36,937 nucleotides of DNA from Gemmatimonadota bacterium. Its GTDB lineage: Bacteria; Gemmatimonadota; Gemmatimonadetes; Gemmatimonadales; Gemmatimonadaceae. Below, piece after piece: positions 3,689-26,650 of the stretch. The stretch covers positions 1 through 36,937 of the forward strand of contig QHUA01000118.1 in NCBI GenBank assembly GCA_003221805.1, given 5' to 3'. Position 1 is the stretch's first letter. Every line of letters begins with the position of its first letter. Both the position numbers and the translations under genes were made by a program. Under the pieces are notes generated by a model, which was not told where the DNA came from, did no database searches, and was given only the letters and a program-made list of their open reading frames with translations.

Positions 3689-5134
3689 ATGAAAGGTTCC
3701 GACCGCCTCCGGCGGCTTGCATGCTACGCCGTGATCGCCGCGCTCGCCGTCGCGGCGGTATCCTGCAACGAAGCGCATCCCAACACCACGCTGGTCCCGC
3801 ACTCCGATTTCGGCCGCGAGATCGATTTTCTGTGGAACCGTCTTCTTCTCCTCGGCACGATCGTATTCATCCTCGTCGAGGGGGCGCTGGTTTACGTCGT
3901 TTTCAAATATCGGCGGAGAGAGAATCAGGGTACTCCCCCACAGACCCACGGCAGCACCAAGCTGGAGATCGCCTGGACGCTGATCCCGGCGGTCATTCTG
4001 GTTTTCATCGCCGTGCCGACGGTGAAGACGATCTTCATCACCCAGGCGCAGGCGGCGCCCGGCTCGCTCAACATCGACGTCACCGGCCACCAATGGTGGT
4101 GGGAATTCAGATATCCCGAGTACGGAGTCACCACGGCGAACGAGATCTACATTCCGGTCGGGCGCACCGTGAATTTCAGACTTCGCTCGGCCGACGTTAT
4201 TCACTCGTTCTGGACTCCGCAGCTCGGTGGCAAGCGCGACGTCGTGACGAACCGCACGAACTACCTCTGGTACACGCCCGACAGCTCGATCGCGAGTAGC
4301 GTCTGGAACGGATTCTGTGCCGAGTACTGCGGCTCGTCGCACGCGAACATGCGCTTCAGGGTTTTCACCGTCACGCAAGCACAGTTTGATTCGTGGATCG
4401 CCGGCCAGAAAATGCCGGCGAGATTCGGCGCCGTCGCCGGGCCGACACCTCCGGCGGGCGGCCAGATCCCGCCGCCAATGGAAGCGCCGGGCATGAGCGT
4501 TCCTGCCGGCGCGAATGCGCCGTCGCAGACGGCACAGGGCGCCGCACCAAGAATCGCGCGGCAAAGTTCAGGGACCCAGGCGCCCGGCGGTGCGCAGCCC
4601 GCAATTCCGCGTCCGCAAACTCCGGCAGCAAATCCAGGCGCACAGACCAGCGTCGGTGGCGTGACTCCATCAACTGGTGCAGCTTCGATTCCAGGAGCAC
4701 TTCCAGCCGGATACATCTTTCCCCGCGCGAACATTCCTGATTACGCCATTCCACATACGCCGATTCCTGCCGATCTGAAATTCACTGCCGGCCTTACGGG
4801 TAGTGCTGCGCGCGGCAAACAGGTCTTCTCCGGCGCCGCGTGCATCGGGTGCCACTCGATTGCGGGCAACCCGGCGGCGATGGGTGTGCTTGGTCCCAAT
4901 CTCACCCACGTCGGATCGCGCAGTATTATCGCGGCCGGCCGCTATCCCAACACCGCGGCATATCTCGCGCTCTGGATCAAGAACGCGCGCAAGATGAAAC
5001 CCGATGTGTTGATGCCGACGCTCGGCATGGACGAATACGATCCTGTTCTCAAAGCGAAAGTCACATCTGCCAACGGCGGACTAACCGATCAGCAGATTGC
5101 CGACATCGTTGCTTACCTCACTGCACTGAAGTAA
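3689..5134 (+). CDS. ctaC: Cytochrome c oxidase subunit II with fused cytochrome c (caa3 type)
   Basis: This subunit accepts electrons at the CuA centre of the terminal oxidase. With the ATG at 3689 the 481-residue product starts with a lipoprotein signal ending AAVSC (Cys26). An ATG-less extension back to 3602 is open but would bury that signal. Two membrane helices follow (about 50-72 and 96-113). The CuA ligands are His172 (VIHSFW) and Cys210, Glu212, Cys214, His218 and Met221 in CAEYCGSSHANM. Residues about 245-360 form a Pro/Ala/Gly/Thr-rich linker of over 100 residues. The C-terminal domain has a haem c site, CIGCH (385-389), with Met442 or Met447 as distal ligand. The fused haem domain makes this a caa3-type enzyme that carries its own cytochrome c. 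First gene of a five-gene operon. Confidence 0.95.
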   Translation: MKGSDRLRRLACYAVIAALAVAAVSCNEAHPNTTLVPHSDFGREIDFLWNRLLLLGTIVFILVEGALVYVVFKYRRRENQGTPPQTHGSTKLEIAWTLIPAVILVFIAVPTVKTIFITQAQAAPGSLNIDVTGHQWWWEFRYPEYGVTTANEIYIPVGRTVNFRLRSADVIHSFWTPQLGGKRDVVTNRTNYLWYTPDSSIASSVWNGFCAEYCGSSHANMRFRVFTVTQAQFDSWIAGQKMPARFGAVAGPTPPAGGQIPPPMEAPGMSVPAGANAPSQTAQGAAPRIARQSSGTQAPGGAQPAIPRPQTPAANPGAQTSVGGVTPSTGAASIPGALPAGYIFPRANIPDYAIPHTPIPADLKFTAGLTGSAARGKQVFSGAACIGCHSIAGNPAAMGVLGPNLTHVGSRSIIAAGRYPNTAAYLALWIKNARKMKPDVLMPTLGMDEYDPVLKAKVTSANGGLTDQQIADIVAYLTALK

Positions 5135-8055: not shown

Positions 8056-8830
8056 ATGTTGGTCCTGGCACTGCTTCATCCGATCGCCAATCTGAGCTGG
8101 TGGCGATGGTCGGTTCATCCGAGTACGGTCATCGGCATCGCAGCACTCGGCGGGCTCTACGTCTGGGCGTCCGCGAAGATTCGCCAGCAGCCAACCACCG
8201 GTCAGAAGATCTATTTCCTCTCAGGGCTGGTGGTGATGTTCGCATCGCTGAATGGCCCCATTCACGATCTCAGCGACGATTATCTCTTCAGCGCCCACAT
8301 GGTGCAGCACCTGCTACTGACGCTCGCCGTGCCGCCGCTCCTTCTCGCCGGAACACCGGGCTGGATGCTTCGTCCGGTTTTGACAAAGCGATACATCGCG
8401 CCGATCGCGCACTTTTTCACACGGGCTCCGATAGCGTTCGTCACGTTCAACCTCACCATTGATCGAGCATCTGATGTTCATGACCGGGGCGGTGCTGATG
8501 TGGTGGCCGCTACTCAGTCAGCTGCCGGATTTTCCGCGGCTCGCCTATCCGGGACAGATGCTTTACAGCTTTCTGATGAGCATTCCGATGTCGATTATCG
8601 CGATCTACATCGCGATGGCCGACCACGTGTTGTATCCGGCGTACAGCGCGGCACCACGCGTTCTGCCGCTCACTCCGCTCGAGGATCAGCTCCTCGGCGC
8701 GTTGATCATGTGGATTCCTGGCGGAATCATCTTCATGATCATCATGACGGTGGTGTTCTTCAAATGGAACGCCCGCGGCGAAGACTCGACCGCGGGCGCG
8801 CAGGTGGACTGGAAGCCGTCGACGGCCTAG
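8056..8830 (+). pseudogene. ctaG: caa3 oxidase assembly factor CtaG, frameshifted with internal deletion
   Basis: The N-terminal half (frame of 8056) runs through HPSTVIGIAALGGLYVW, GPIHDLSDDYLFSAHMVQHL and GTPGWMLRP to APIAFVTFNLTI. It is then out of frame. The C-terminal half continues in another frame from about 8462 as IEHLMFMTGAVLMWWPLL to GIIFMIIMTVVFFKWN. Both halves match the CtaG family, which delivers copper to CuB in caa3 oxidases. In relatives about 20-25 residues, including a WHxPxxY-type segment, lie between the FN and EHL motifs, and these are missing here. So the lesion is a deletion of roughly 60-65 bp that also shifts the frame, not a single-base slip. The 5' frame runs on to 8967 without homology. 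The stop (8828-8830) overlaps the convergent gene's stop. Confidence 0.8.
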
Positions 8831-9327
8831 TCGTCGGTTCCCTCAAGCTCTCGCTTGAGCTGATGATCGAGCTTCGGGTGCTTTCGCCACAAGTACCACA
8901 GCATCAGCGACGATGCCAGCAGATTGGCGATGAAGATCTGCACCCAGGACATTTGTCCGAGAGCTGATTGCGCGAACGCCGCTGCGATCATGTAGAAACC
9001 CAGCGTCATCATCACGAAAGCGACGAGCAATCCGGCGAGAATCCCCGGCGTCCGCTCCGCCTGATGAACGATGACGGTCAGCAGAATCCCGACGATGAAG
9101 AACGCCACGTAGTGGAACACCGTGTAGCCCAGCACCTGGGTGAACGCGGTATCGCCCATCATGTTCTTGCCGAGGATGCTGACGACGCCCTTGCCGAGGA
9201 AGATCGGCGTGTAGAATGGATGGCCGGCGATGGTGTCGACGATGAGGAACCACACTGCGATCGCCGTCGCGCCGATGAAACCGGTGATGATGCCCTCACG
9301 CAAGAAGTTGTGCGGCCGCTCAGCCAT
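8827..9327 (-). CDS. Small four-helix membrane protein, unknown function
   Basis: A 166-residue protein I do not recognise. ATG at 9327 is chosen because AGAGGA lies 6 bases upstream; the frame is open further upstream but without a better start. Hydrophobic segments lie near residues 10-28 (ITGFIGATAIAVWFLIVDT), 62-84, 90-112 and 124-142. A charged tail (RKHPKLDHQLKRELEGTDD) closes it. The loop between helices 1 and 2 (GHPFYTPIFLGKGVVSILG) looks structured. It is convergent with ctaG and their TAG stops share the CTAG palindrome. A role near the oxidase is possible only by position. Confidence 0.7.
   Translation of the reverse strand: MAERPHNFLREGIITGFIGATAIAVWFLIVDTIAGHPFYTPIFLGKGVVSILGKNMMGDTAFTQVLGYTVFHYVAFFIVGILLTVIVHQAERTPGILAGLLVAFVMMTLGFYMIAAAFAQSALGQMSWVQIFIANLLASSLMLWYLWRKHPKLDHQLKRELEGTDD
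8842..8859 (+). terminator. Hairpin after the oxidase operon
   Basis: CTCAAGC, a 4-base loop TCTC, and GCTTGAG form a perfect 7-bp stem 12 bp after the ctaG stop, inside the 3' end of the convergent gene. No T-tract follows on either strand, so intrinsic termination is doubtful; it could act as an RNA 3'-end stabiliser. Confidence 0.25.
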
Positions 9328-9514
9328 CGGTATCCTCTCGTGCGGTGGGATGCAACTCTGTTTCCGAGGAAAATACCCAACCCGTCGATATATTCCTAGC
9401 GAACTTCCAACGCGGCGCCGGCTGTGAGTGCGTCGCAACCATGGCACCGTTCTCGCCACTCGATGCCGTTCCGCTCCCCTCGTTCATTCAGTTTCAGACG
9501 CTCACCGCTCGACA

Positions 9515-11059
9515 ATGTTCTCTCGTAAAATTCGCATCGCCATCCTCTGCGCGCTCACCGCTTGCGCCGCAGCTCCTGCTATTCTCGAGTCACAGACTCC
9601 AAGGCGAACGACGACGAGGCGTCGAGTAAGAAGGCCAAACCGTAACCGGCCGCCCGTCGTTCCCGCGGTTGCCTACAGCACCACGCGCAGCACAGACGAC
9701 CTCGCTTCGACGCTGAGCAGCCTCGCCGGGAGAATCAGAAGTGGAATGTGGGGAGGCATGGTGGTTTCGCTGACGCGTGGCGACACTCTTTACGCCTACA
9801 ATGCCGGCGAAGAGATGCTGCCGGCGTCGACGATGAAGCTGCTGACGAGCGCCATCGCCCTGGACAGATTCGGTCCCAACTACCAGTTCAGCACCGATGC
9901 CCTGCGCGACGGAGTAGTCGGCTCGGATGGAACTCTCACCGGCAATCTCTACATCCGCGGGGACGGCGATCCCGCTCTCTCAGGAAAATTTCTTCCCGGT
10001 GGCCCCTCTGCGCCCATGAATCGACTGGCCGACCTGGTGGCGCAGAAAGGAATCAGGCACATCACCGGCAGCGTCATCGGCGACGCGACCGGATTCGACG
10101 AGCAAAAAGTTCCTGAAGGCTGGTTGTCCCGCTACCTCCAGGCGGGCTACGCAGCGCGAGTCTCGGCGCTTTCCCTCAACGAGAATCTCGTTGCCGTCGC
10201 GGTCACGCCGACGACACCGGGAAAACCCGCGATGGTCGCGCTCGAACCTTCCAGCAGCGCGATTCAGGTCATCGCCAACGTCCGCACAGTTGCCGGCGGC
10301 GGCGCTCGACTTGGATTCCGGAAGCAGGGCAACGGGACGATCGTAGCGAATGGATCGATCGGGTCGCGCACCGGAACCCGACGCTACGTCTACATCGTCG
10401 AGGATCCGGCGAGCTTCACGACGGGCGCCTTCAGAAACGCGCTGGTCGCCCGCGGCATCAAAGTCGATGGCGACATCCAGCTCGGAAAGACTCCCGCCAG
10501 CGCGGTAAAAGTGGCCAGCCTCGCCTCGCCGCCGCTCGCCAGCATGATCGCGGCGATGAACCGCGAGAGCATCAATCATTATGCTGAGCTGCTTTTTCGT
10601 AACGCCGCCCGCGGCCCCGATCGAAACGTCACCGGCAGCGTCGCCACCGCCAGCGCTCTGCTCGATCAATTCTTTGCCTCCAAGGTCGGGGCCGACACGA
10701 CGCGTCTTGTTTTTGCCGATGGCAGCGGCCTCTCCATCCTCGATCGGGTAACCCCCCGAGCTCAGGTACAACTGCTGGGGTACGCCCACCACGCGTCTTG
10801 GGGTCCCTGGCTCCACTCATCCCTGCCGGTGGCAGGCGATTCCGAACTGCTCAGGCGCCGCATGCGAAACACCCCCGCCGAGGGCAACCTCCACGCCAAG
10901 ACGGGCACGACCAACGACGTGATTGCGTTGGCCGGATACGTAACGGCGGTAAATGGTGAGGTGCTGGCCTTCTCCTTCCTCTACAATGGCCGGGACCGCT
11001 GGATCGCCAAGTCGATGATCGACGTGATGAGTGAAACTCTCGCCAGCTTTGGCAGGTAG
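9515..11059 (+). CDS. dacB: D-alanyl-D-alanine carboxypeptidase/endopeptidase, PBP4 (S13) family
   Basis: A periplasmic penicillin-binding protein that trims or cleaves peptidoglycan cross-links. Starting at ATG 9515 the 514-residue product has a signal peptide (RKIRIAILCALTACAAAPAILES) and then a basic stretch RRTTTRRRVRRPNRNR. The three active-site motifs are present: SxxK as Ser105-Thr-Met-Lys108 in PASTMKLL, SxN as SIN in NRESINHYAELL, and KTG in HAKTGTTND. The large insert between the first two motifs is typical of class C low-molecular-mass PBPs. An upstream in-frame start at 9428 would bury the signal. The 9328-9514 gap holds no recognised site. A stem-loop follows the stop directly. 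Confidence 0.9.
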   Translation: MFSRKIRIAILCALTACAAAPAILESQTPRRTTTRRRVRRPNRNRPPVVPAVAYSTTRSTDDLASTLSSLAGRIRSGMWGGMVVSLTRGDTLYAYNAGEEMLPASTMKLLTSAIALDRFGPNYQFSTDALRDGVVGSDGTLTGNLYIRGDGDPALSGKFLPGGPSAPMNRLADLVAQKGIRHITGSVIGDATGFDEQKVPEGWLSRYLQAGYAARVSALSLNENLVAVAVTPTTPGKPAMVALEPSSSAIQVIANVRTVAGGGARLGFRKQGNGTIVANGSIGSRTGTRRYVYIVEDPASFTTGAFRNALVARGIKVDGDIQLGKTPASAVKVASLASPPLASMIAAMNRESINHYAELLFRNAARGPDRNVTGSVATASALLDQFFASKVGADTTRLVFADGSGLSILDRVTPRAQVQLLGYAHHASWGPWLHSSLPVAGDSELLRRRMRNTPAEGNLHAKTGTTNDVIALAGYVTAVNGEVLAFSFLYNGRDRWIAKSMIDVMSETLASFGR

Positions 11060-11095
11060 ATATATTCAAAGGGTAACCCCTTTGAAAACATATAT
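11060..11095 (+). terminator. Stem-loop after dacB
   Basis: TTCAAAGGG (11065-11073), loop TAAC, CCCTTTGAA (11078-11086) is a perfect 9-bp stem. ATATA at 11060-11064 and TATAT at 11091-11095 can extend it. It begins at the last base of the dacB stop region. No clean T-tract follows (ATATATTT), so efficiency is uncertain. Confidence 0.55.
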
Positions 11096-11122
11096 TTAGC
11101 GTGGTAGGAAAAAGCCCTCACT

Positions 11123-11138
11123 TGGCATTTTTCCTGCA
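11123..11138 (+). promoter_or_regulatory. Possible sigma-54 type promoter
   Basis: TGGCATTTTTCCTGCA has the TGGCA block and the GG-to-GC spacing of 10 bases that sigma-54 requires; the -12 block is CTGC instead of TTGC. It lies about 47 bp before the ATG at 11185. No enhancer-binding protein gene or activator site is seen, so this may be chance. Confidence 0.25.
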
Positions 11139-11184
11139 CGCCACCAATGCATACCGCGTGTTGAAACCGCGTGAGGTCATAGAT

Positions 11185-11538
11185 ATGTCTTATCGCACTT
11201 TCGTGGACAAAGACGGCTCCTACTGGCAGGTCTGGGACTCGCAGCCGACAAAGGTAGAGCGGCGGGTCGCGATCGAGGACCGTCGACGTCCAAGATTCTT
11301 ATCGTGGCACGGCGAAGAGCGCCGCCGGGGCGGTCCGGATCGGCGCACCATGACTCAGCGCCGCATCACTCTCTCCGAAGGCTACGGCGCTGGTTGGCTG
11401 ACCTTTGAATCCCTGAGCGAGAAACGCCGCCTGACTCCTATTCCTTCACGTTGGGAAGATTTGTCGCAGGGTGAGCTCCGAAGCCTTTGCGAGAAGGCAA
11501 AGCGCATCGCCCGCACCGAAGGGATGAGCCCCACCTAA
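11185..11538 (+). CDS. Small RR-rich conserved hypothetical protein
   Basis: A 117-residue soluble protein with no family I can name. ATG at 11185 is preferred over the open frame upstream because GAGG lies about 10 bases before it and the MSYRTFVDKDGSYWQVWD opening looks like a genuine N-terminus. That opening is aromatic-rich. It is followed by three basic clusters (VERR, EDRRRPRF, EERRRGGPDRRTMTQRR), and a segment GWLTFESLSEKRRLTPIP then a C-terminal helix. No signal peptide or membrane segment. Proteins with a similar opening seem common in Gemmatimonadota; this is memory, not a search. The basic patches could bind nucleic acid, but that is inference. Confidence 0.7.
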   Translation: MSYRTFVDKDGSYWQVWDSQPTKVERRVAIEDRRRPRFLSWHGEERRRGGPDRRTMTQRRITLSEGYGAGWLTFESLSEKRRLTPIPSRWEDLSQGELRSLCEKAKRIARTEGMSPT

Positions 11539-11586
11539 AAAAACCACCCCCAGCCGACTCCTGGCGAGAAGAGCCGACTGGGGGTG
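11538..11586 (-). terminator. Intrinsic terminator of the lipoprotein gene
   Basis: CACCCCCAG (11545-11553) pairs with CTGGGGGTG (11578-11586). The stem extends inward through CCGACTC/GAGCCGA with two mismatches, leaving a loop of about 10 bases. On the minus strand a run of seven T residues follows (A residues 11537-11543 on the plus strand), so it terminates the gene ending at 11628. Both arms contain the direct word AGCCGACT. Confidence 0.8.
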
Positions 11587-11627
11587 CGAAGCGGATTCGT
11601 TCTGGGTGCGCCGACGAGGTCCGCTTC

Positions 11628-12575
11628 TTAGTCGTGACAGTCCACGCCCTCACCCACTAGCGAGAGTGTTCCGGTCTTCGTGGTGCCGTCCTGCGTAATG
11701 CTGATCTGAGCCGTGCTCGTTCCGTTGAAGGTGATGACTTCGCGGCGTGAGGACATCGTCGAAGTCTGGCCACTCGACGTCACCGTCGCCTGCATCGACC
11801 GCACGATTGTGCCGGCGGTCGGGAAAGTGGGTCTTCCGTTCTGAAGCGGGATGATCACGCCGGTCGCAGTATCACCGGCGACGCGCGTCGAAGTAAAGTG
11901 AACCCCATCTTCATTGGTGCCCGAGGTGTTCTCGGTGCCACTCGCAGTTCCGTTGACTGTCCGCTGCGTGCTTCCGGAAGCGAGTCCGGCAACAGTGATG
12001 TCGCTCTTGCTGTTGACAGTGCTCGTGTCTGCGCCGTCGTGGTGAACCCTCGTTCCGGTGACCGTCGTCTGCGCGTTGACGGTGTTGGTCTTGGCGGTGT
12101 CGAATGCCTGCTGTACGGCGCCCGACGCATCGAGATACGAGAAGGATCGGGTGATGGTGAGTCCGCGACGTGTTACGGCGGGGCAGTCAACTCGATTGTC
12201 AGTCGAAGAGAATGCGCAGGGCGAAGGCGAATCGTCGTCGCGAAGATTGCCGAAGGGGCCTCTGCCGAAGCCGAGCCCGAACAAAATGCGACCTCTGAAG
12301 ACGTCGGCGATGCCGCCGCCCATCAGACTGGTCCAGCCCGGTCCTCTGTGGTGCTCGCTATCCTCGCCGTCGGAGTGTTCGCTCCCCGGAGCGAAGCCGG
12401 CGTTGGTGTCGGAATTCCCGACGAAGGTCGTGTTGATCTGGTCGAAGCTGACTGGCGCGGTCGCCAGCGCGGATGCCGCCAGTGCTGAAGTGACCGGTGT
12501 GGTCGTGCTATCGGAACAGGCGGCGGCAATCACGCCGGCACCGGCAATGAGAAGGAAACCGAGAATCTTTTTCAT
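11628..12575 (-). CDS. Predicted lipoprotein, unknown function
   Basis: A 315-residue lipoprotein with signal MKKILGFLLIAGAGVIAAAC and lipobox AAAC (Cys20). ATG at 12575 has GGAGAGG about 5 bases upstream, which decides the start over an upstream frame opening. Residues 60-110 carry an acidic/His stretch (EHSDGEDSEHHRGP) and a Gly/Phe-rich segment (GRILFGLGFGRGPFG). The rest is Thr/Ser-rich and probably beta-stranded, with many TT, TS and GT pairs, and ends VGEGVDCHD. Two further cysteines (in SPCAF and VDCPA) could form a disulphide. I do not recognise a domain. It lies downstream of the ECF sigma gene on the same strand with a terminator-like hairpin between, so it may be a separately transcribed target of that sigma factor. 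Confidence 0.75.
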   Translation of the reverse strand: MKKILGFLLIAGAGVIAAACSDSTTTPVTSALAASALATAPVSFDQINTTFVGNSDTNAGFAPGSEHSDGEDSEHHRGPGWTSLMGGGIADVFRGRILFGLGFGRGPFGNLRDDDSPSPCAFSSTDNRVDCPAVTRRGLTITRSFSYLDASGAVQQAFDTAKTNTVNAQTTVTGTRVHHDGADTSTVNSKSDITVAGLASGSTQRTVNGTASGTENTSGTNEDGVHFTSTRVAGDTATGVIIPLQNGRPTFPTAGTIVRSMQATVTSSGQTSTMSSRREVITFNGTSTAQISITQDGTTKTGTLSLVGEGVDCHD

Positions 12576-12630
12576 GTGCCTCTCCAAGATTTTTGTTGCG
12601 AGCTCTTCCGGTTTTCGCAAACCGTCCTGG

Positions 12631-12656
12631 AAAACGAGACACGCGTGATTCTCGTT
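12631..12656 (-). terminator. Hairpin with T-run between sigma gene and lipoprotein gene
   Basis: AACGAGA (12633-12639) and TCTCGTT (12650-12656) form a 7-bp stem whose loop holds the palindrome CACGCGTG. Read on the minus strand the stem is followed by TTTT, 30 bp after the sigma stop. It would end or attenuate transcription before the lipoprotein. Confidence 0.5.
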
Positions 12657-12685
12657 ACCCTACACCTCCCCGGGCCTGACCGGTC

Positions 12686-13267
12686 TTAGCCGCCAACCTC
12701 CCGCTTTCTGACGTTTCGAGGAAGCCATTGATCGAGTCGCTGGCGCAGCTCGGCCAACGCCTGACCCATCCGCTTTTCGACCGTTTTTACCGAAATCTCC
12801 AACGCGACGGCGATCTCAGCGTACTTGAGACCCTGGTCGCGGCTTAGCAGAAACACTTCTCGGCATTTCTTCGGCAACCCATCGATTGCAGCGCGGACGG
12901 CCTGCTCCAGCTCGGTGCCGAGCACCTCGTCTTCGGCCGACGGCGCGCTCGGCGCGTCGATCGCCGCGATTGCTGCTTCGCGCGCGACAATGCGCTGGTG
13001 ACGAACGTGATTGAGCGCTCGATTGCGCGTCGATCGCAACAGATAGGCGCGAAAGGTTTGCTCGACCTGCAACGTCTCACGCCTGCGCCACAGCTCCAGC
13101 ATTACTTCCTGCGCAACTTCCTCGGCCAGCGCATGCTCACGGACGACTGACTCAGCCATCCGCACGAGGTGTGCGTAGTGGGTGCGGAAGACAGTGTCGA
13201 AAGCGCTTTCGTCTCCTGCCCGAATTCGCTGCTGTAGCGCCCGCTCGCTCGCGTCGTTCGTGTCCAA
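12686..13267 (-). CDS. ECF-type RNA polymerase sigma factor (FecI-like)
   Basis: A 193-residue sigma-70 family protein with only regions 2 and 4. Region 2 spans about 25-95 (FRTHYAHLVRMAESVV, then EEVAQEVMLELWRRRE and FRAYLLRSTRNRALNHVR). A variable linker follows (about 100-125). Region 4 spans about 130-180 (LPKKCREVFLLSRDQGLKYAEIA and a KTVEKRMGQAL recognition helix). The start is TTG at 13267; no ATG lies between it and region 2, and no Shine-Dalgarno sequence is clear. It is transcribed away from the FecR-like gene only 37 bp apart, whereas FecI-FecR pairs are usually co-directional. It should direct polymerase to a small regulon, probably including the TonB receptor. Confidence 0.9.
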   Translation of the reverse strand: MDTNDASERALQQRIRAGDESAFDTVFRTHYAHLVRMAESVVREHALAEEVAQEVMLELWRRRETLQVEQTFRAYLLRSTRNRALNHVRHQRIVAREAAIAAIDAPSAPSAEDEVLGTELEQAVRAAIDGLPKKCREVFLLSRDQGLKYAEIAVALEISVKTVEKRMGQALAELRQRLDQWLPRNVRKREVGG

Positions 13268-13304
13268 GTAGGGTGGCGTTTGGTTCAGGTGTCTGTCTTA
13301 TTAA

Positions 13305-14378
13305 ATGAATATGTCGAATCCTGACGGGGGTTCCGCCAAGATCAGTCCCGACGAGTGGGAGCGCATCGCCCGCTACGTAACGGGCGAAGCTGGTCCGGGC
13401 GAGGCCGAGATCACCAAGCGGTGGGTGGAAGCTGATCCTCATCGCGTCGAGATCGTGCGGCTGCTCGAGTCCATCGTCAGGAACGTAGAGCGCGACGACT
13501 CGTCTGCTACCGCAATGGATGTAGAAAGTGCCCTCACCAAGGTGAAGGCGCGGTTCGGCGAGGCGAAGGTGATCCCGTTCAGTCAGCGCCACGTCGAGGC
13601 GGAATCGCGTCGCACGTTGATTGCGCTCGTCAAAGTGGCGGCAGCGGCGGTCATCATCGTCGGCGGCACCGTGCTTTGGCAACGCCTGCGGCTCTCGGAG
13701 TACAACTCCAACGGTCAGACTTTCGCGACCTCGGTTGGAGAGCGCAGGCAGGTCGTGCTGACAGACGGCACCCAGGTGCTGCTCGGTCCGACCAGCCGAC
13801 TGGTGGTTGCAAAAACAGGGAATAACGACCTCCGCCTGGTCACCCTCGACGGAATTGCCTACTTCAGTGTCGTGCACGATCCGTCGCATCCGTTTACGGT
13901 GAAAGCGGGGGCGATCAGCATCCAGGATGTCGGGACGGCCTTCGCCGTGGAAAGCGATGACAGTGCTGGCACGCGCGTGGCGGTTGATTCGGGCTCCGTG
14001 GCGATCGGAGCAGCGGATCAGAAGCACAGTCGCGGGGCGGTACTCAACGCCCGGGATCGCGCTATCGTAGATGCTCAAGGGGTTGTCTCGGTTGAGAGAT
14101 CAGCTGTTTCCGAAGACGACCTTGCCTGGATTCAGGGACGGCTTGTTTTTCGCGATGCTCCGCTGATCCTTGTTGGTGCCGAACTTTACCGCTGGTATGG
14201 AGTAAGGCTACGAGTGGCTGATTCGTCCCTGGCGAATCTGCACCTCACTGCATCTTTTTCTGGTGAGCCAGTCGATCGGGTTCTCAATGTCATTGCGCTC
14301 TCACTCGGTGCTCGCATCGAGCGGCAGGGAAACGTCGCCATTCTCTACCGGGCTCCGGCGTCTGGAACACACCCGTAG
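13305..14378 (+). CDS. FecR-like anti-sigma/signal-transducing membrane protein
   Basis: A 357-residue inner-membrane regulator. The cytoplasmic N-terminus (1-103) carries the WERIARYVTGEAGPGEAE segment typical of FecR sigma-binding domains. One membrane helix follows (about 105-125, LVKVAAAAVIIVGGTVLW). The periplasmic part has the FecR beta domain (about 135-250, with VGERRQVVLTDGTQVLLG and DVGTAFAV) and a C-terminal segment with ALSLGARIERQGNVAILY like the DUF4974 region. The TonB receptor's STN domain is the expected partner. Start at 13305; an in-frame ATG at 13311 is an alternative and neither has a good ribosome site. Its last ~115 bp overlap the receptor frame. Confidence 0.88.
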   Translation: MNMSNPDGGSAKISPDEWERIARYVTGEAGPGEAEITKRWVEADPHRVEIVRLLESIVRNVERDDSSATAMDVESALTKVKARFGEAKVIPFSQRHVEAESRRTLIALVKVAAAAVIIVGGTVLWQRLRLSEYNSNGQTFATSVGERRQVVLTDGTQVLLGPTSRLVVAKTGNNDLRLVTLDGIAYFSVVHDPSHPFTVKAGAISIQDVGTAFAVESDDSAGTRVAVDSGSVAIGAADQKHSRGAVLNARDRAIVDAQGVVSVERSAVSEDDLAWIQGRLVFRDAPLILVGAELYRWYGVRLRVADSSLANLHLTASFSGEPVDRVLNVIALSLGARIERQGNVAILYRAPASGTHP

Positions 14379-16878
14379 CGGTCGCGTACTTCTCCCAGCA
14401 TCGCGCGTTTCGCTCGCGATCGCGCTTTCTATTGCGTCGCTGACATTCACGCCCGCGGCGGACGCTCAGTCCTGCTCGACATCGAGTGATTTGCTGGCGT
14501 CCCTCGCCAACTGGAACGCGCCGCTCGACCGAATGGTTTCGCTTCATGCACGCGACATCTCGCTGCGCGATGCTCTCGATCGGATCTCTTCGGATGCGCG
14601 GATCAAACTGTCGTACACGTCGGAAACAATTCCGCTCGATAACAGAATCTGCGCGGTGTTTGACTCCGTTCCATTAGGAGAAGCACTCGGACTGCTGCTC
14701 AAAGGAACGACGGTTCTCCCGGTGTCGGCCGGTGGTGAACATGTCGTTCTCATGCCGTCGCAGACGCCGGGCGCGAATCAGGGTATACCGCGAATGCTCG
14801 ACCGCGTTGTCGTCACCGGTAGTACGATCGAGGCATCCGCGCGACCGCTTACAGTGGCGATGAACGTCGTCAGTGGCGCCCAACTCTCGCATTACGCCGA
14901 AGGAAATCTCGGGCAGGCGTTGAGTGACGCGGTGCCTGGCTTGTGGGTGTGGCAGAGCGGCCCGACATCGCTGCTCGCTCACTATGGAAGCATCCGCGGC
15001 ACCAGCTCGTTCGGCGCCAGCTATCCCAAGGTCTATGTCGACGGGATCGAGCTCGCCAATCCGCTGCTCGTCACCCAGTTCACTCCCGAGACCGTGGAGA
15101 GGATCGAGGTGATTCGCGGACCGCAGGGCGCCGCTCTCTACGGAACGGACGCCATTAGCGGCGTGATCAACATTGTAACGCGTCACGATGGATCGAACGG
15201 CGGACCGAGCACGGTGGTACGCTCGGCGGTTGGCGCCGCGTCGAGTGCATATGTGCCGCGTTCGGCCATCACTCAGGATCACGCGGTCACCGTGCGTGAG
15301 GGATCGAACGCGCAATCCGGCAGCGCCAGCTTTACGTCGGGCGGTGTCGGTGAATACTTGCCCGGTGCTTTTGCGCGGCACGCTACCGGCAGCGCCGGTT
15401 TTCGGATCGTCCGCTCGAAGTTGATCGCTACGGCGATGGGAAGAATTTTCGCCAGTGAGTCCGCCGATCCGACGAGCCCGCTCTTCCGTGACTCAGTCAG
15501 CGCGGCACGGGCAGGACTGGTCGTGCCACAGTCGGTGCAGGAGTATACGGTGGGCGCCACGGCGACGATCGTGCAGAGCGACCGCTGGACGCACTCGATC
15601 GTGGCCGGATTCGATGGCAGCCGGCTCACGAATCTCGCCGACTATCACACACCGCTTCCCTCAGCGTCCGCGCCCGATCTCGGCAGCGCCGGCGGCAACG
15701 CCAATCTGACGTCGCTGCGAATCAGCAGCGTCGCCAAGCTGGGCGATCCTGAAAACCTGGCAACGACGCTGACATTCGCTGCGGAAAACTCGATGCTCGA
15801 CTTCAAGGCGCAGGCGGATACGGTGTCGACGCAGCCGACGACTGCTGCACTCTCATCTGCGGTTGTGCGCAGATGGACGACTGGCGGCGTGGCGCAGGCG
15901 AACATCGGTTGGCGCGATGCCGGTTACGTCACGACCGGGCTCCGCGTAGAGCGCAATGAATCACTCGGCAGCGACGCCAATGTCTCCGTGCTGCCGATGC
16001 TTGGCGTCGCGGGCCTGCGCGATATCGGTCCTGTGACCGTGAAATTGCGTTCGGCATACGGGCGCGGAATCAGGCCGGCGACGACTCCCATTCGCGAGAC
16101 CGCGTGGTTCGATCCGCGCCGCGAAGCTCAGCTCGTCGACTTGGCGCCCGAGCAGCAATCGGGAATCGAGACGGGGATGGATCTCTACGTCGGCAAGGTA
16201 TTCGGATTTCAGGTGACTCGCTTCGACCAGCTTGCTTCGGGACTGATTCAGCGCGTTGCGTACGCCGCCCCGGAATCACACGCCGAGGGCCCATCCACCG
16301 GATGGTACACTCCGCCGCAGCAGCCGTATGCGCCCGCTGATCGCCACATCTCGTATTTGCTGCAGAACGTCGGACAGATCACCAATCGCGGCTGGGAATT
16401 GAAGAGCGATCTCAATCTTGGCACGCTGGCCCTCAGCGGGACATTCTCGACGGTGGACAGCCGAGTGAGACGAGTCGCGACGAACTACATCGGAGATCTG
16501 CGGGTCGGTGACCGGATGCTCGAGGTACCGTCAAAGACTGGCAGTCTCTCGGCGGCGTGGACCGGAGGCGGCTGGACCAGTTTCCTCGTCGCGTCGCGAT
16601 CGTGGGACTGGATCGATTACGATCGTGTAGCACTCGCGGGCGCGTTCTCGAATTCGACTCAAGCGGACGCCCAGCTCGTCGGACAGCAGCTGCGCAATTA
16701 TTGGCTGAATTACAGCGGCGTGACGCGCCTGCGCGCTTCAGTCGGGCGGAATTTGTTCCGCGGGCTGTCGTTCACGTTGAGTGGAGAGAATCTGCTCAAC
16801 CGGCAGCATGGAGAGCCGGACAACATTACGGTTGTTCCAGGGCGTACGGTGAGCTTCGGGTTGCGGGCGGTTATGTAG
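14263..16878 (+). CDS. TonB-dependent outer-membrane receptor with STN signalling domain
   Basis: An 871-residue frame (if started at GTG 14263) for a ligand-uptake and signalling receptor. The possible starts (14263 GTG, 14287 ATG, 14293 TTG, 14308 GTG) all overlap the FecR stop, so translation is probably coupled; the true N-terminus is unresolved. The signal peptide is VSLAIALSIASLTFTPAADAQ. The STN domain follows (LHARDISLRDALDRI to LLLKGTTVLPV), then the plug with VVVTGS, DAVPGLWVWQSGP and the ERIEVIRGPQGAALYGTDA motif with GVINIVT. A long beta-barrel follows, closing with TFTLSGENLLNRQH and a terminal aromatic-type strand (VSFGLRAVM). The ligand is unknown: no siderophore, cobalamin or glycan gene adjoins it. 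Confidence 0.92.
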   Translation: MSQSIGFSMSLRSHSVLASSGRETSPFSTGLRRLEHTRSGRVLLPASRVSLAIALSIASLTFTPAADAQSCSTSSDLLASLANWNAPLDRMVSLHARDISLRDALDRISSDARIKLSYTSETIPLDNRICAVFDSVPLGEALGLLLKGTTVLPVSAGGEHVVLMPSQTPGANQGIPRMLDRVVVTGSTIEASARPLTVAMNVVSGAQLSHYAEGNLGQALSDAVPGLWVWQSGPTSLLAHYGSIRGTSSFGASYPKVYVDGIELANPLLVTQFTPETVERIEVIRGPQGAALYGTDAISGVINIVTRHDGSNGGPSTVVRSAVGAASSAYVPRSAITQDHAVTVREGSNAQSGSASFTSGGVGEYLPGAFARHATGSAGFRIVRSKLIATAMGRIFASESADPTSPLFRDSVSAARAGLVVPQSVQEYTVGATATIVQSDRWTHSIVAGFDGSRLTNLADYHTPLPSASAPDLGSAGGNANLTSLRISSVAKLGDPENLATTLTFAAENSMLDFKAQADTVSTQPTTAALSSAVVRRWTTGGVAQANIGWRDAGYVTTGLRVERNESLGSDANVSVLPMLGVAGLRDIGPVTVKLRSAYGRGIRPATTPIRETAWFDPRREAQLVDLAPEQQSGIETGMDLYVGKVFGFQVTRFDQLASGLIQRVAYAAPESHAEGPSTGWYTPPQQPYAPADRHISYLLQNVGQITNRGWELKSDLNLGTLALSGTFSTVDSRVRRVATNYIGDLRVGDRMLEVPSKTGSLSAAWTGGGWTSFLVASRSWDWIDYDRVALAGAFSNSTQADAQLVGQQLRNYWLNYSGVTRLRASVGRNLFRGLSFTLSGENLLNRQHGEPDNITVVPGRTVSFGLRAVM

Positions 16879-16988
16879 GGATTGCGAATCGCTAACTGAT
16901 TGCGAGCTACGAACTGGCTGCGAACTACGAACCTACTGCGAGCTGCGAACCGACGGCGAACTGCGAGTTGAATTAAGAACTGGCTGTA
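16879..16988. repeat. Heptad-word repeat element (copy B)
   Basis: The whole gap between two convergent stops is made of degenerate 7-mers of the form TGCGAAC/TACGAAC/TGCGAGC. They come in pairs with a 4-base spacer, giving a period of 18: TGCGAGC TACGAAC TGGC, TGCGAAC TACGAAC CTAC, TGCGAGC TGCGAAC CGAC, GGCGAAC TGCGAGT. No gene or T-tract is present. Words in the element at 18228-18339 are the approximate reverse complement. Confidence 0.75.
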
Positions 16989-18227: not shown

Positions 18228-18339
18228 TTAGTCCGCAGCTCGCAGCTGTTAGTAACCAATCCGCAGTTAGTCCCCCATCCGCAATTAGTCAGCAGTCCGA
18301 AATGCCGTTGGTCCGCACTCCGCAGTCCGCACCAGACCG
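18228..18339. repeat. Heptad-word repeat element (copy C)
   Basis: This fills the gap between convergent stops. Clear 7-mers are TCCGCAG CTCGCAG CTGTTAG, then TCCGCAG TTAGTCC, and near the end TCCGCAC TCCGCAG TCCGCAC. Intervening words (TTAGTAACCAA, CAATTAGTCAGCAG) are more degenerate. The TCCGCAG/CTCGCAG words are close to the reverse complement of the words in 16879-16988. No coding or T-tract. Confidence 0.72.
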
Positions 18340-20094: not shown

Positions 20095-21091
20095 CTACCA
20101 AGTGACGGTGTATACCACCGGCGCGATAGCCATTCCATTCGGATCCGGATTCGATTTTGGCGCGAGCGCGATGATGTAGCGTCCCCCCGCGGTCGCGGCC
20201 AATGCGATCCCGGCACCGACGATGCGTTGCGCGGCTGTCGTTCCGGGAGCCGTTGGAGTCTGCGTGATCGTGATCACTCCACGCTCACTGAGAATGTTGA
20301 AGGCCTGATTTCCGCGCTCGATCTTGATCGGCGGGGCCTGGGTCATATCGATTGGCACCGATCGATCGAGCGTCGGTCCCATCGTGAATCCACGTCTGAC
20401 TCGGCTCGTTGTCCTCGGCGCGGCCGGGATTGTTTCCCAAAGCCAGCGTCGAGCCATCGGTAGTCCAACGCACGCGCCAGCCCCGGGCAATGGGGAATAG
20501 TCTCGGTGCCGAGCTGTCGGCAGCGGATTGCAGGCGGGGATTGTCCGGAATGTGAATCACGCCGGGCTGGGCGACAGCGCGCGCCATCGACATTCCGCTC
20601 GAGGCAAACGATCCAGCGCGCAGAGTGGCGGTGTCGATCGACGTGCGACGCGAAACGTCGGCGATGAGATCAGTCCCAGTCCCTTCCCCGCGAACGACGC
20701 CATAGGCGCGACCGAAGCCGATCCACTTCCAGTCGGGCGAAGGCTCGACGTCCCACACACTGTCCATCTGCGTCTGGAATCCGCGCGTCTCGTCGCCGAA
20801 GAAGAAGCCATTAGGCACCGGCTCGTTCTCGACGCCGCCCGGATCGGCAACCACCAGGACGGATTTCCTGTCGGGCGAAAACGCCCACAGCACGCGCTCC
20901 GCCATTCCCGTCGAACCGCGATTCACCGGAGTGACGGTGATCACCGGGCCAGCGGAAGTGGTATCAGCGCTGGTTTGTTTTTTCGACGAGTCGACGATGC
21001 AGCCGGAGAGAAGGAGCGGGATGAGGAAAAGCGGGAAGAGGGAAGCGGGAAGAGGGAAGAGGGGCCGGCGAAATCGGGGGGAATTGAGCAT
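20095..21091 (-). pseudogene. PD40/WD40-like repeat lipoprotein, frameshifted by a 4-bp duplication
   Basis: From ATG 21091 the frame encodes a lipoprotein signal ending LLLSGC, then beta-propeller-like blocks: WAFSPDRKSVLVVADPGG, PSPDWKWIGFGRAYG and RWTTDGSTLALGNNPG. It continues to WIHDGTDARS, then leaves frame and ends at 20285. The other frame (20095 side) continues plausibly as VPIDMTQAPPIKIERGNQ to the end. At the junction the strand reads CGATCGATCG; removing one ATCG copy (20359-20369) rejoins DARS to VPIDMTQ exactly. So a 4-bp tandem duplication broke an otherwise continuous gene of about 330 codons. The signal-peptide codons lie in a heptad repeat (21010-21083). Function unknown; propeller lipoproteins often bind proteins or glycans. 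A sequencing error is also possible. Confidence 0.72.
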
Positions 21092-24857: not shown

Positions 24858-25163
24858 TAAATCAGCTGTCTGCTAACGGGGATCGGTTGGGAGGCCGGTG
24901 GGCGGTGGGAGTGCAGTGAAAGCCTCCATCATTGATAACCGAAATGTAGCGTTTCGGCGCGTTGAAATCAACCAAATCAATCGGCCGTAAGTAACGATGC
25001 GATAAGCGCTTAGGTATTTGAAAAGCTCATCGGTAGTTTACGACATGAGAGAGTCGAAAAAATGTGAGCGGTTCAAGCTCAGCAGTAGCAATGCGTTGCC
25101 TTATTTGGGCGGGTTGGGGATGGTGTTAGTTTGCCTTTCTTTCCATTCCATGAAGGAATCGCG
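24858..25163. other. Divergent intergenic region between gyrA and the YCII/DGPF gene
   Basis: 306 bp without a gene. Next to gyrA lies a short G-rich stretch with 7-base words (GTGGGCG, GTGGGAG), weaker than the heptad elements elsewhere. A candidate gyrA promoter is at 24943-24971. A small hairpin TGAGC/GCTCA (25065-25081) resembles a tRNA T-arm by chance only. AAGGA at about 25153-25157 serves the DGPF gene. I see no clear promoter for that gene. Confidence 0.5.
24943..24971 (-). promoter_or_regulatory. Candidate sigma-70 promoter for gyrA
   Basis: On the minus strand TTGATT (24971-24966), a 17-base spacer, then TACATT (24948-24943) match a vegetative promoter with four or five positions in each box. 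It would give a leader of about 80 nt before the gyrA ATG. No sequence-specific regulator site is evident. Confidence 0.45.
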
Positions 25164-25565
25164 ATGAAGTTCATGGTACTGATCTACAACGATCCCGAAC
25201 TATTGGCTGCCTTGCCTGAGCGCGAGTTCGACGAGACGATGCGCGGCTGTCTCGAACATGCCGACGAGCTCCAGGAACAGGGATACCTGATCGAGTCACA
25301 GCAGCTCGAGCCGCCATCGACGGCGAAATCGATTAGGGTCCGCAACGGCAAGATGACCACGATCGACGGCCCGTTTTCGGAAACGAAGGAAGTGCTCGGC
25401 GGATTCAATCTTATCGAAGCCGAAAATATCGAGGAAGCAATGCGAATCGCCCTCGAGTTTCCCTGGGCGGAGACAGGTTGTATCGAGGTCCGCCCGGTGC
25501 GCGATATTCAGGCAGTGGCGAAGCGGGTGGGAGCGAAAGGAGCTCCGGTAGCAGCGCGGCGATAG
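25164..25565 (+). CDS. YCII-related (DGPF domain) protein
   Basis: A 133-residue protein of the YCII/DGPF family. Landmarks are the N-terminal MKFMVLIYNDPE, a middle TTIDGPFSETKEVLGGFNLIEA with the name-giving DGPF, and EFPWAETGCIEVRPVRDI near the end. The fold is a small ferredoxin-like dimer with a possible catalytic His/Asp pair in other members; the reaction is not known. ATG 25164 is chosen because AAGGA is 6-7 bases upstream. Relatives commonly sit beside an ECF sigma gene, but here none does. Its TAG is followed immediately by the heptad element 25566-25723. Confidence 0.88.
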   Translation: MKFMVLIYNDPELLAALPEREFDETMRGCLEHADELQEQGYLIESQQLEPPSTAKSIRVRNGKMTTIDGPFSETKEVLGGFNLIEAENIEEAMRIALEFPWAETGCIEVRPVRDIQAVAKRVGAKGAPVAARR

Positions 25566-25723
25566 AGCGGGAAGCGGGAAGCGGGAAGCGGAAGGTAGTA
25601 ACGGATAAACGGGAAACGGATACGGGGAACGGTAGGCGCGCTTCCAGCTACCCGTTATACGTAACCGCTACCCGTAATAGGTCGCCCGTTGTCCGCTTCC
25701 CGCTTCCCGCTTCCCGCTTCCCT
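25566..25723. repeat. Heptad-word palindrome (copy E), filling a convergent gap
   Basis: The element occupies exactly the space between two convergent stop codons. The left half is CGGGAAG repeated three times, then CGGAAG, GTAGTAA, CGGATAA, ACGGGAA, ACGGATA, CGGGGAA, CGGTAGG. The right half is CTTCCAG, CTACCCG, TTATACG, TAACCG, CTACCCG, TAATAGG, TCGCCCG, TTGTCCG, then CTTCCCG three times and CTTCCCT. The outer words are exact reverse complements and the inner words degenerate, so a hairpin of about 75-bp arms is possible. It could work as a bidirectional transcript end, but it has no T-tract. Confidence 0.85.
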
Positions 25724-26650
25724 CTAGTTGTTGCCGGCGGGCGCCTTCTCGTCGAGGAACGGAATCACCGTCGCCGCCAACGCGGGCGCAGCAAAAATCG
25801 TGTAGTGCGTCAGGCCGGGAAGAATCGCCAGGCGCGACTTCGGCTGACCCGATCCGTCCCAACCACCATCGCGCTGGCCGCCGCCGAGTAGTCCGAACAT
25901 CTCGACTGCGTGCGACGGCGGAAAAATGTCGGCGTCTCCGGCGACGATCAGAGTGGTTGCGGTGATGCCGCGGATTTGCTGCGAGAGGTCGAAGTCGGCC
26001 TTCATCGCGTCGCCGATTTTGCTCAGCAGTCTTCCCCAATCCTGTGGGCGCGGGGCCAGGCTGGCGTATAGCTGATACATCGGCGTCTGCTTCATCGCTT
26101 CCGCGGCCTGGGCGCTCACCTGCCCCTGCTGGGCGAGAATATCCGGATAGAATCCGTTCCGTCTGAACGGAGTCGAGACGACGACCAGCTTGCCGACAAC
26201 TTCGGGATGTCTGATCGCGGTTTGCAGAGCGACGCCGCCGCCGAGTGAGTATCCCATCACGTCGGGACGCTCGAGCTTGAGATACTTGATCAGCGCCGCG
26301 ATGTCATCGGCCATGTACTCCACACTGAGCGGGCGATCGATGTCGGCAGTGCGGCCATGGCCCTGCAGATCGACGGCGATGACCTGGTGATTCGCGGCCA
26401 GCGCGGTGAGGTTGGGCCCGAACATCTCGATGGCGCCGAGTCCGCCATGGAGGAGAACTAGCGGGCGGCCTTTGCCGTGGATCTCGTAATAAAGCTTGAT
26501 CCCGTTGACGTCGGCGTAGTGTCCTTCCGCTTTCTTGCCCGATCCGCCCCACGAACCTGCGCCCTGGGCGTCCGCGTTCGCTGGGGCGGCAATGATGGCC
26601 GCTGCGGCAAGAACGCTCGTGATGTTGGTAAGTCTCGATATTGAACGCAT
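25724..26650 (-). CDS. Exported alpha/beta hydrolase
   Basis: A 308-residue periplasmic or secreted hydrolase with a signal peptide (SVLAAAAIIAAPANADAQ). The fold is shown by VNGIKLYYEIHGKGRPLVLLHGG with the oxyanion HGG (68-70), VIAVDLQGHGRT, and the nucleophile elbow GYSLGG (Ser135). The acid is in VAGDADIFPP (about 245-254) and the catalytic His in PGLTHYTIF near the C-terminus. The triad is complete. Relatives include esterases, epoxide hydrolases and haloperoxidase-like proteins, so the substrate is open. ATG 26650 has GGAG nine bases upstream. It is separated from the DGPF gene only by the heptad palindrome. Confidence 0.88.
   Translation of the reverse strand: MRSISRLTNITSVLAAAAIIAAPANADAQGAGSWGGSGKKAEGHYADVNGIKLYYEIHGKGRPLVLLHGGLGAIEMFGPNLTALAANHQVIAVDLQGHGRTADIDRPLSVEYMADDIAALIKYLKLERPDVMGYSLGGGVALQTAIRHPEVVGKLVVVSTPFRRNGFYPDILAQQGQVSAQAAEAMKQTPMYQLYASLAPRPQDWGRLLSKIGDAMKADFDLSQQIRGITATTLIVAGDADIFPPSHAVEMFGLLGGGQRDGGWDGSGQPKSRLAILPGLTHYTIFAAPALAATVIPFLDEKAPAGNN

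Follow-up and report, generated by a model that had tools for sequence, protein, structure and literature searches.

Results

The DNA analysed here (the window) is a 36,937-nucleotide stretch of contig QHUA01000118.1 from a Gemmatimonadaceae draft genome of 3.14 Mb (GCA_003221805.1, hereafter G000). Within it, an ORF for a YCII-related protein (PF03795; Pfam E value 5e-20) at 25131-25565 on the plus strand converges on an ORF for an alpha/beta hydrolase (PF00561/PF12697; E value 3e-17) at 25724-26650 on the minus strand. The element is the whole of the 158 bp between them, 25566-25723, and runs exactly from one TAG stop codon (25563-25565) to the other (25724-25726), as the preliminary description had it. 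Its left arm opens with perfect heptads (AGCGGGAAGCGGGAAGCGGGAAGCGG; 25566-25591, plus strand), seen in the sequence and by TRF, whose G-rich strand is the sense strand of the left gene, and continues with drifted heptads (ACGGATA, ACGGGAA, ACGGATA, CGGGGAA) at 25592-25635. Close to the palindrome dyad lies GCGCGC (25636-25641), and similar GGAAGCGCGCTTCC centres occur at other G000 loci. The right arm, on the minus strand, comprises drifted heptads at 25642-25692 and perfect heptads at 25693-25723, which read AGGGAAGCGGGAAGCGGGAAGCGGGAAGCGG immediately 3' of the hydrolase TAG. The outer words given originally, three copies of CGGGAAG on the left (25568-25588) and three of CTTCCCG on the right (25696-25716), are both exact.

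The element as a whole has a lag-7 identity of 0.616, whereas dinucleotide shuffles give 0.259 ± 0.036 (p = 0.0002, the smallest value obtainable with 5000 shuffles). The drifted inner part alone gives 0.483 against 0.249 (p = 0.0002), and its left and right halves, tested separately, each give p of about 0.005; local values are 0.54 at 25597-25638 (0.31 shuffled) and 0.46 at 25645-25690 (0.25 shuffled). The reported period-7 drift of the inner words is thus significant, but the strict register is broken in places by 6- and 8-mers. As a single RNA strand the element folds at -93.7 kcal/mol (z -7.1), and its continuous stem is confined to the outer ~28 bp. The gap contains no T run despite this strong hairpin, and the earlier view that it is not a normal U-tract terminator holds. 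No Rfam model matched at its gathering score anywhere in the window. In the best congener matches examined, no YCII gene was found next to the one for the hydrolase, and these matches therefore offer no orthologous empty site for 25566-25723.

Two other convergent gaps of the window carry other dialects: 16879-16988 (GCGAACT, TACGAAC; z7 = 4.6; TRF period 18) and 18228-18339 (GTCCGCA, TTAGTCC; z7 = 4.7; TRF periods 18 and 7), both built of period-7/18 words. Words of the GCGAACT and GTCCGCA type recur in several other gaps and in the relative G020. A GGGAAGC/GGGAAGA heptad array also occurs within a minus-strand coding sequence (20285-21091); it occupies 21015-21063 and, read as TTCCCGC/TTCCCTC, codes for the hydrophobic stretch of what looks like a lipoprotein signal peptide (FPLPASLFPLFLIPLLLSGC). 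At 1406-1633 is a long imperfect palindrome starting AAAGACAACTGCCTGCTGGGCGCTGACC (fold z -13.6), the end sequence of which occurs 18 times in G000, in several cases in inverted pairs with a spacing of about 165 bp; this is a separate palindromic repeat family.

The element is one two-armed copy of a genome-wide intergenic family of heptanucleotide arrays, here (GGGAAGC)n. The 21-mer of three perfect CGGGAAG units has 89 matches in G000, overlapping registers counted, at about 37 places, and the reversed control 21-mer has none. The preliminary description of a single convergent palindrome was therefore incomplete, and the family also includes single arms and arrays in co-directional gaps; the convergent gap appears filled because two stop-anchored arms meet there. 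We sampled 40 further G000 regions picked around arrays, in which array density is therefore unrepresentative; gene calls came from a hexamer model of our own making, which gives approximate starts and exact stops. Forty-one of 48 arms are intergenic, six lie within called genes and one is at a contig end, and at least 10 inverted pairs besides this element stand in convergent orientation in the sampled part. In these regions, intergenic lag-7 identity declines from convergent gaps (0.357) through co-directional (0.304) to divergent ones (0.264), with echoes at lags 14 and 21; when gaps with GGGAAGC arrays are removed, a weaker signal persists, z exceeding 3 in 23% of convergent versus 1% of divergent gaps, and the other two convergent gaps of the window, with their different words, contribute to it. 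At locus L152, a heptad array (3691-3876) lies between ligD-like and ku-like genes, a bacterial end-joining pair named from N-terminal sequences only.

The arms of G000 sit at gene ends and run inward with fixed polarity, drift in phase 7 and occur singly or as inverted pairs. Of the stop-side arms, 22 of 25 start 0-8 nt past the stop codon with the G-rich strand sense, and, read on the G-rich strand, an arm lies a median of 6 nt from its 5' gene but 136 nt from its 3' gene. Many arms are single, and some lie upstream of start codons, where the distance from the gene is larger. The fraction of stop-side arrays within 10 nt of the stop is 50-94% in five genomes, versus 25-44% under random placement. 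Arrays occupy 31 of 138 convergent gaps (22%), 52 of 534 co-directional gaps (10%) and 8 of 197 divergent gaps (4%; p = 1e-4 and 4e-7), and array frequency ranks the gap classes identically in the relatives G013 and G033, which were sampled mostly as contiguous stretches. G-rich sense polarity near stops is 29:2 in G000, 11:2 in G033 and 10:5 in G022, and is reversed (2:8) in G013. Most G000 arms carry at least three perfect units followed by further CGGG; moving off the gene, identity to CGGGAAG per unit falls through 1.0, 1.0, 0.96, 0.80, 0.69 and 0.55 to 0.3, the first two values being set by the search pattern, and the decay often passes via CGGGTTA and CGGGTAA.

Searching 61 relatives with the degenerate pattern CGGG-N3 revealed strong, genome-specific words: CGGGACT in G033, GGGTAAC and GGGCAGC in G013, and GGGAATC in G022 and G020. 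These same words had zero matches in many sister genomes. The same architecture is also built from words without GGG (GCGTGGA, GGCATCA, GACTCGT, GGCTGAT, GAACTGC). The excess of period 7 that the preliminary description had expected of relatives is present in their genomes. G000 has 52 arrays at period 7 versus 0-3 at periods 5, 6 and 8-12, and G022 has 35 versus 0 at other periods, while periods 8-12 occur besides period 7 in G033 and G013. In a plasmid collection, the G033 element matches only the two megaplasmids of Gemmatirosa kalamazoonensis KBS708, and because it matches solely that organism's among plasmids, we infer that G033 is KBS708 (Gemmatirosa below). An assembly artefact, which the preliminary description had raised, is rejected: the same architecture is found in complete megaplasmid records of an isolate (both G. 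kalamazoonensis megaplasmids) and on a relative's chromosome. A phage origin is likewise rejected: among 2.9 million viral contigs, just 15 contain three units. GGGAAGC arrays in other phyla grade into neighbouring heptad words, and their inverted partners are rare (1 of 113). Two loci in relatives have unusual arrangements. L307 of G022 holds about nine mixed-word heptad clusters within 8 kb (8700-16400), far denser than elsewhere, and L264 of G033 (15223-15435) has GGAGCGT in one arm and GAGCGCA in the other, words that are akin but not identical, on the two sides of a stretch of ~150 bp that may be coding.

Orthologous gaps display different states within the genus. The L158 gap lies between threonine-aldolase-like and dnaE-like genes (named by eye from N-termini), and congeners with about 75-83% DNA identity in its flanks present it in four states. 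In G005, G010, G011 and G014 this gap is 67-75 bp and contains no heptads; in G009 it is 74 bp, its stop-side end consists of four heptads (one changed) and the remainder is shared ancestral sequence; in G016 and G017 it holds inverted pairs of other words, and in G000 a GGGAAGC pair. The L169 gap presents a similar picture; in G009 and G016 it holds palindromes that are unrelated. It is thus at the edge next to the stop that arrays appear, and they vary among members of the genus. Replacement of a conserved terminator hairpin by the array looked promising by eye and was rejected: the array-less orthologous gaps have no strong hairpin at the same place and fold no better than shuffles (z -2.0 to +0.3). 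U-tract terminators were found in 12 of 102 convergent gaps without arrays and 1 of 27 with arrays (p = 0.3), a comparison that is uninformative because such terminators are rare in G000 convergent gaps anyway.

Are the two arms a unit, or do they merely meet? Convergent gaps are occupied at both ends in 12 cases, versus 2.5 expected if the ends were independent (p = 9e-6). Loop lengths in the inverted pairs of Gemmatirosa are 4-31 nt plus one of 89 nt, and all 18 pairs have same-word arms (11 of one word, 7 of the other, none mixed), an outcome with a probability of about 1e-5 under independent assortment by our own arithmetic. Compensatory evolution of the two arms was tested in G000 and was not found: arms match each other no better within a locus than across loci (permutation p = 0.74 and 0.64), which gives no hint of per-locus selection for pairing in that genome. 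In G022 the two arms of one gap often differ in word. In one genome at least, the palindrome is a genuine unit, as the same-word Gemmatirosa pairs and the excess of double occupancy indicate, and locus-by-locus maintenance of pairing is not visible in G000.

Discussion

Which known repeats does this family most resemble? The preliminary description named the STRR heptamers of cyanobacteria as the nearest concept. STRR words differ from the heptads of the element, and we know of no stop-anchored inverted pairs described for STRR. Heptameric repeats were nonetheless the right comparison. In the work cited in PMC4692102, STRR of heterocystous cyanobacteria (Calothrix) appear, as here, as intergenic heptanucleotide tandem repeats. 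Closer still, and the closest known kind, are the heptameric G-rich repeats GGGAATC of Xanthomonas and GGGGA(C/T)T of Nostoc (Rehm et al. 2015; consensus GGGNATC/GGGANTN; PMC4692102), which are dispersed, intergenic, have their G-rich strand 0-50 nt past stops on the coding strand, form 70-75 inverted pairs per Xanthomonas genome and have no function assigned. Like these, the present family has a tandem 7-nt unit with a G3 tract in at least two copies (CGGGAAG three times on both arms of the element), is dispersed (about 37 places) and mostly intergenic (41 of 48 arms), starts its G-rich strand near the 5' neighbouring ORF and includes inverted convergent pairs. Unlike them, its unit GGGAAGC does not fit either consensus (GGGAATC itself occurs in the relatives G020 and G022), its anchoring is tighter (mostly 0-8 nt), and the Gemmatimonadota words are many, some of them GGG-less or of reversed polarity, with a decay ladder leading off the ORF.

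The TAACTGA heptamers of Beggiatoaceae, Cyanobacteria and Bacteroidetes (MacGregor 2015; PMC4679880) are also intergenic 7-nt direct repeats with a patchy distribution over phyla and no assigned function, in two to six copies in BOGUAY, but they consist of one fixed word, lie mostly just upstream of starts and have almost no inverted pairs. We found no description of such repeats in Gemmatimonadota in a limited collection of open literature on Gemmatimonas heptamers and tandem repeats.

What might explain the observed period, stop anchoring and turnover of the arrays, and the coupling of their arms in one genome? The explanation that we favour, with middling confidence, is that the element is a slippage-born, fast-turnover heptad hairpin that starts at stop codons and probably provides a two-way 3'-end structure, the step of termination being one that we infer. 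Arrays would be born and lengthened by 7-nt slippage, a process proposed by Mrazek (as cited in PMC4692102 and PMC4679880), and would turn over fast. They would fill non-coding DNA until they reach coding or promoter sequence protected by selection, which would place their edge at the stop. Paired arms would arise as a unit, probably through strand switching across a hairpin, which would give them the same word. If transcribed, the palindrome would present the same long stem just past the stop in both convergent transcripts, and this stem is most likely tolerated, and perhaps useful, as a bidirectional 3'-end structure other than a U-tract terminator. It could act as a polymerase roadblock, as an exonuclease barrier or in factor-dependent termination. 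Several results weigh against this explanation: the lack of locus-specific matching between arms in G000, the many single arms and the start-side arms, the differing words at the two ends of many G022 gaps, and the weak folding of array-less orthologous gaps.

A simpler account, possible though distinctly less probable to us, is that the arrays are functionless products of slippage, that stop anchoring marks only the onset of purifying selection and that inward-running arms yield palindromes by meeting. It agrees with the lack of arm co-evolution inside G000 loci, the commonness of single arms, the occupation of start-side edges, the free variation of words among sister genomes and the fast change in presence and absence at orthologous gaps. 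However, it does not readily accommodate the occupation of both ends of convergent gaps (12 versus 2.5) or the 18 of 18 same-word Gemmatirosa pairs, and random filling alone leaves the strand polarity near stops (29:2 in G000) unexplained.

G-quadruplex formation has been put forward for the Xanthomonas and Nostoc heptamers, and GGGAATC and GGGGAYT oligonucleotides form the structure by CD (PMC4692102). Here four GGGAAGC units would supply four G3 tracts with 4-nt loops in RNA or DNA just past the stop, and most arms have the three or more perfect units, then more CGGG, from which the tracts could be drawn; the GGGAAGC arrays may thus form G-quadruplexes, as far as their composition tells. As the cause of the family this is improbable, because the GGG-less words build the same architecture and the G013 sense strand past the stop is C-rich (8:2), so that a G-quadruplex is not the shared principle.

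More speculative, and in our view quite unlikely, is a dedicated, word-independent process by which many bacteria would build 7-nt arrays from the edges of ORFs inward, each lineage with its own word. Examples would be replication machinery that works in a 7-nt register, or a polymerase or reverse transcriptase that extends exposed 3' ends by heptads. If this were true, heptad palindromes would be a telomere-like repair scar, not ordinary microsatellites. Under another proposal, G-rich heptads would be added enzymatically to the 3' ends at intergenic breaks, both ends being healed in a telomere-like manner. This would explain why arms run inward from both edges of ORFs regardless of gene orientation, why perfect units lie nearest the old end and why arms are single as well as double. 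We consider it very unlikely: no enzyme has been identified and there is no direct evidence of breaks, words vary inside one genome and polarity is opposite in G013.

Spread as a REP/REPIN-like mobile palindrome by a RAYT (Y1) transposase is the least credible reading and is largely refuted: REP and REPIN are likewise dispersed, many-copy extragenic palindromes able to form hairpins, and a loop core (GCTGCGGAC) in 4 of 11 sampled Gemmatirosa GGGACTC elements (one with a single change) suggests copying, but REP/REPIN have a conserved core and a cognate RAYT (PMC2817692, PMC8266576), whereas here most loops are unrelated, array length is variable, the heptad word alone is common to loci (as the preliminary description recognised in setting REP aside), and the transposase family PF01797, present in 21 of 61 relatives, is absent from the heptad-rich genomes G000, G013, G017, G020, G022 and G033, for which reason RAYT mobilisation is rejected.

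The preference of bacteria for 7-nt repeats, on record since 2007, is still without explanation (discussed in PMC4692102 and PMC4679880). The Gemmatimonadaceae are a clean system for this problem, with differing words in sister species, gaps that are empty in one genome and filled in another, and strict stop anchoring, and a cultured relative, Gemmatirosa kalamazoonensis, is dense in perfect heptad hairpins. In this family the period, which is constant, can be separated from the sequence, which is free; this argues against a purely G-quadruplex cause and points to a machinery that makes the period.
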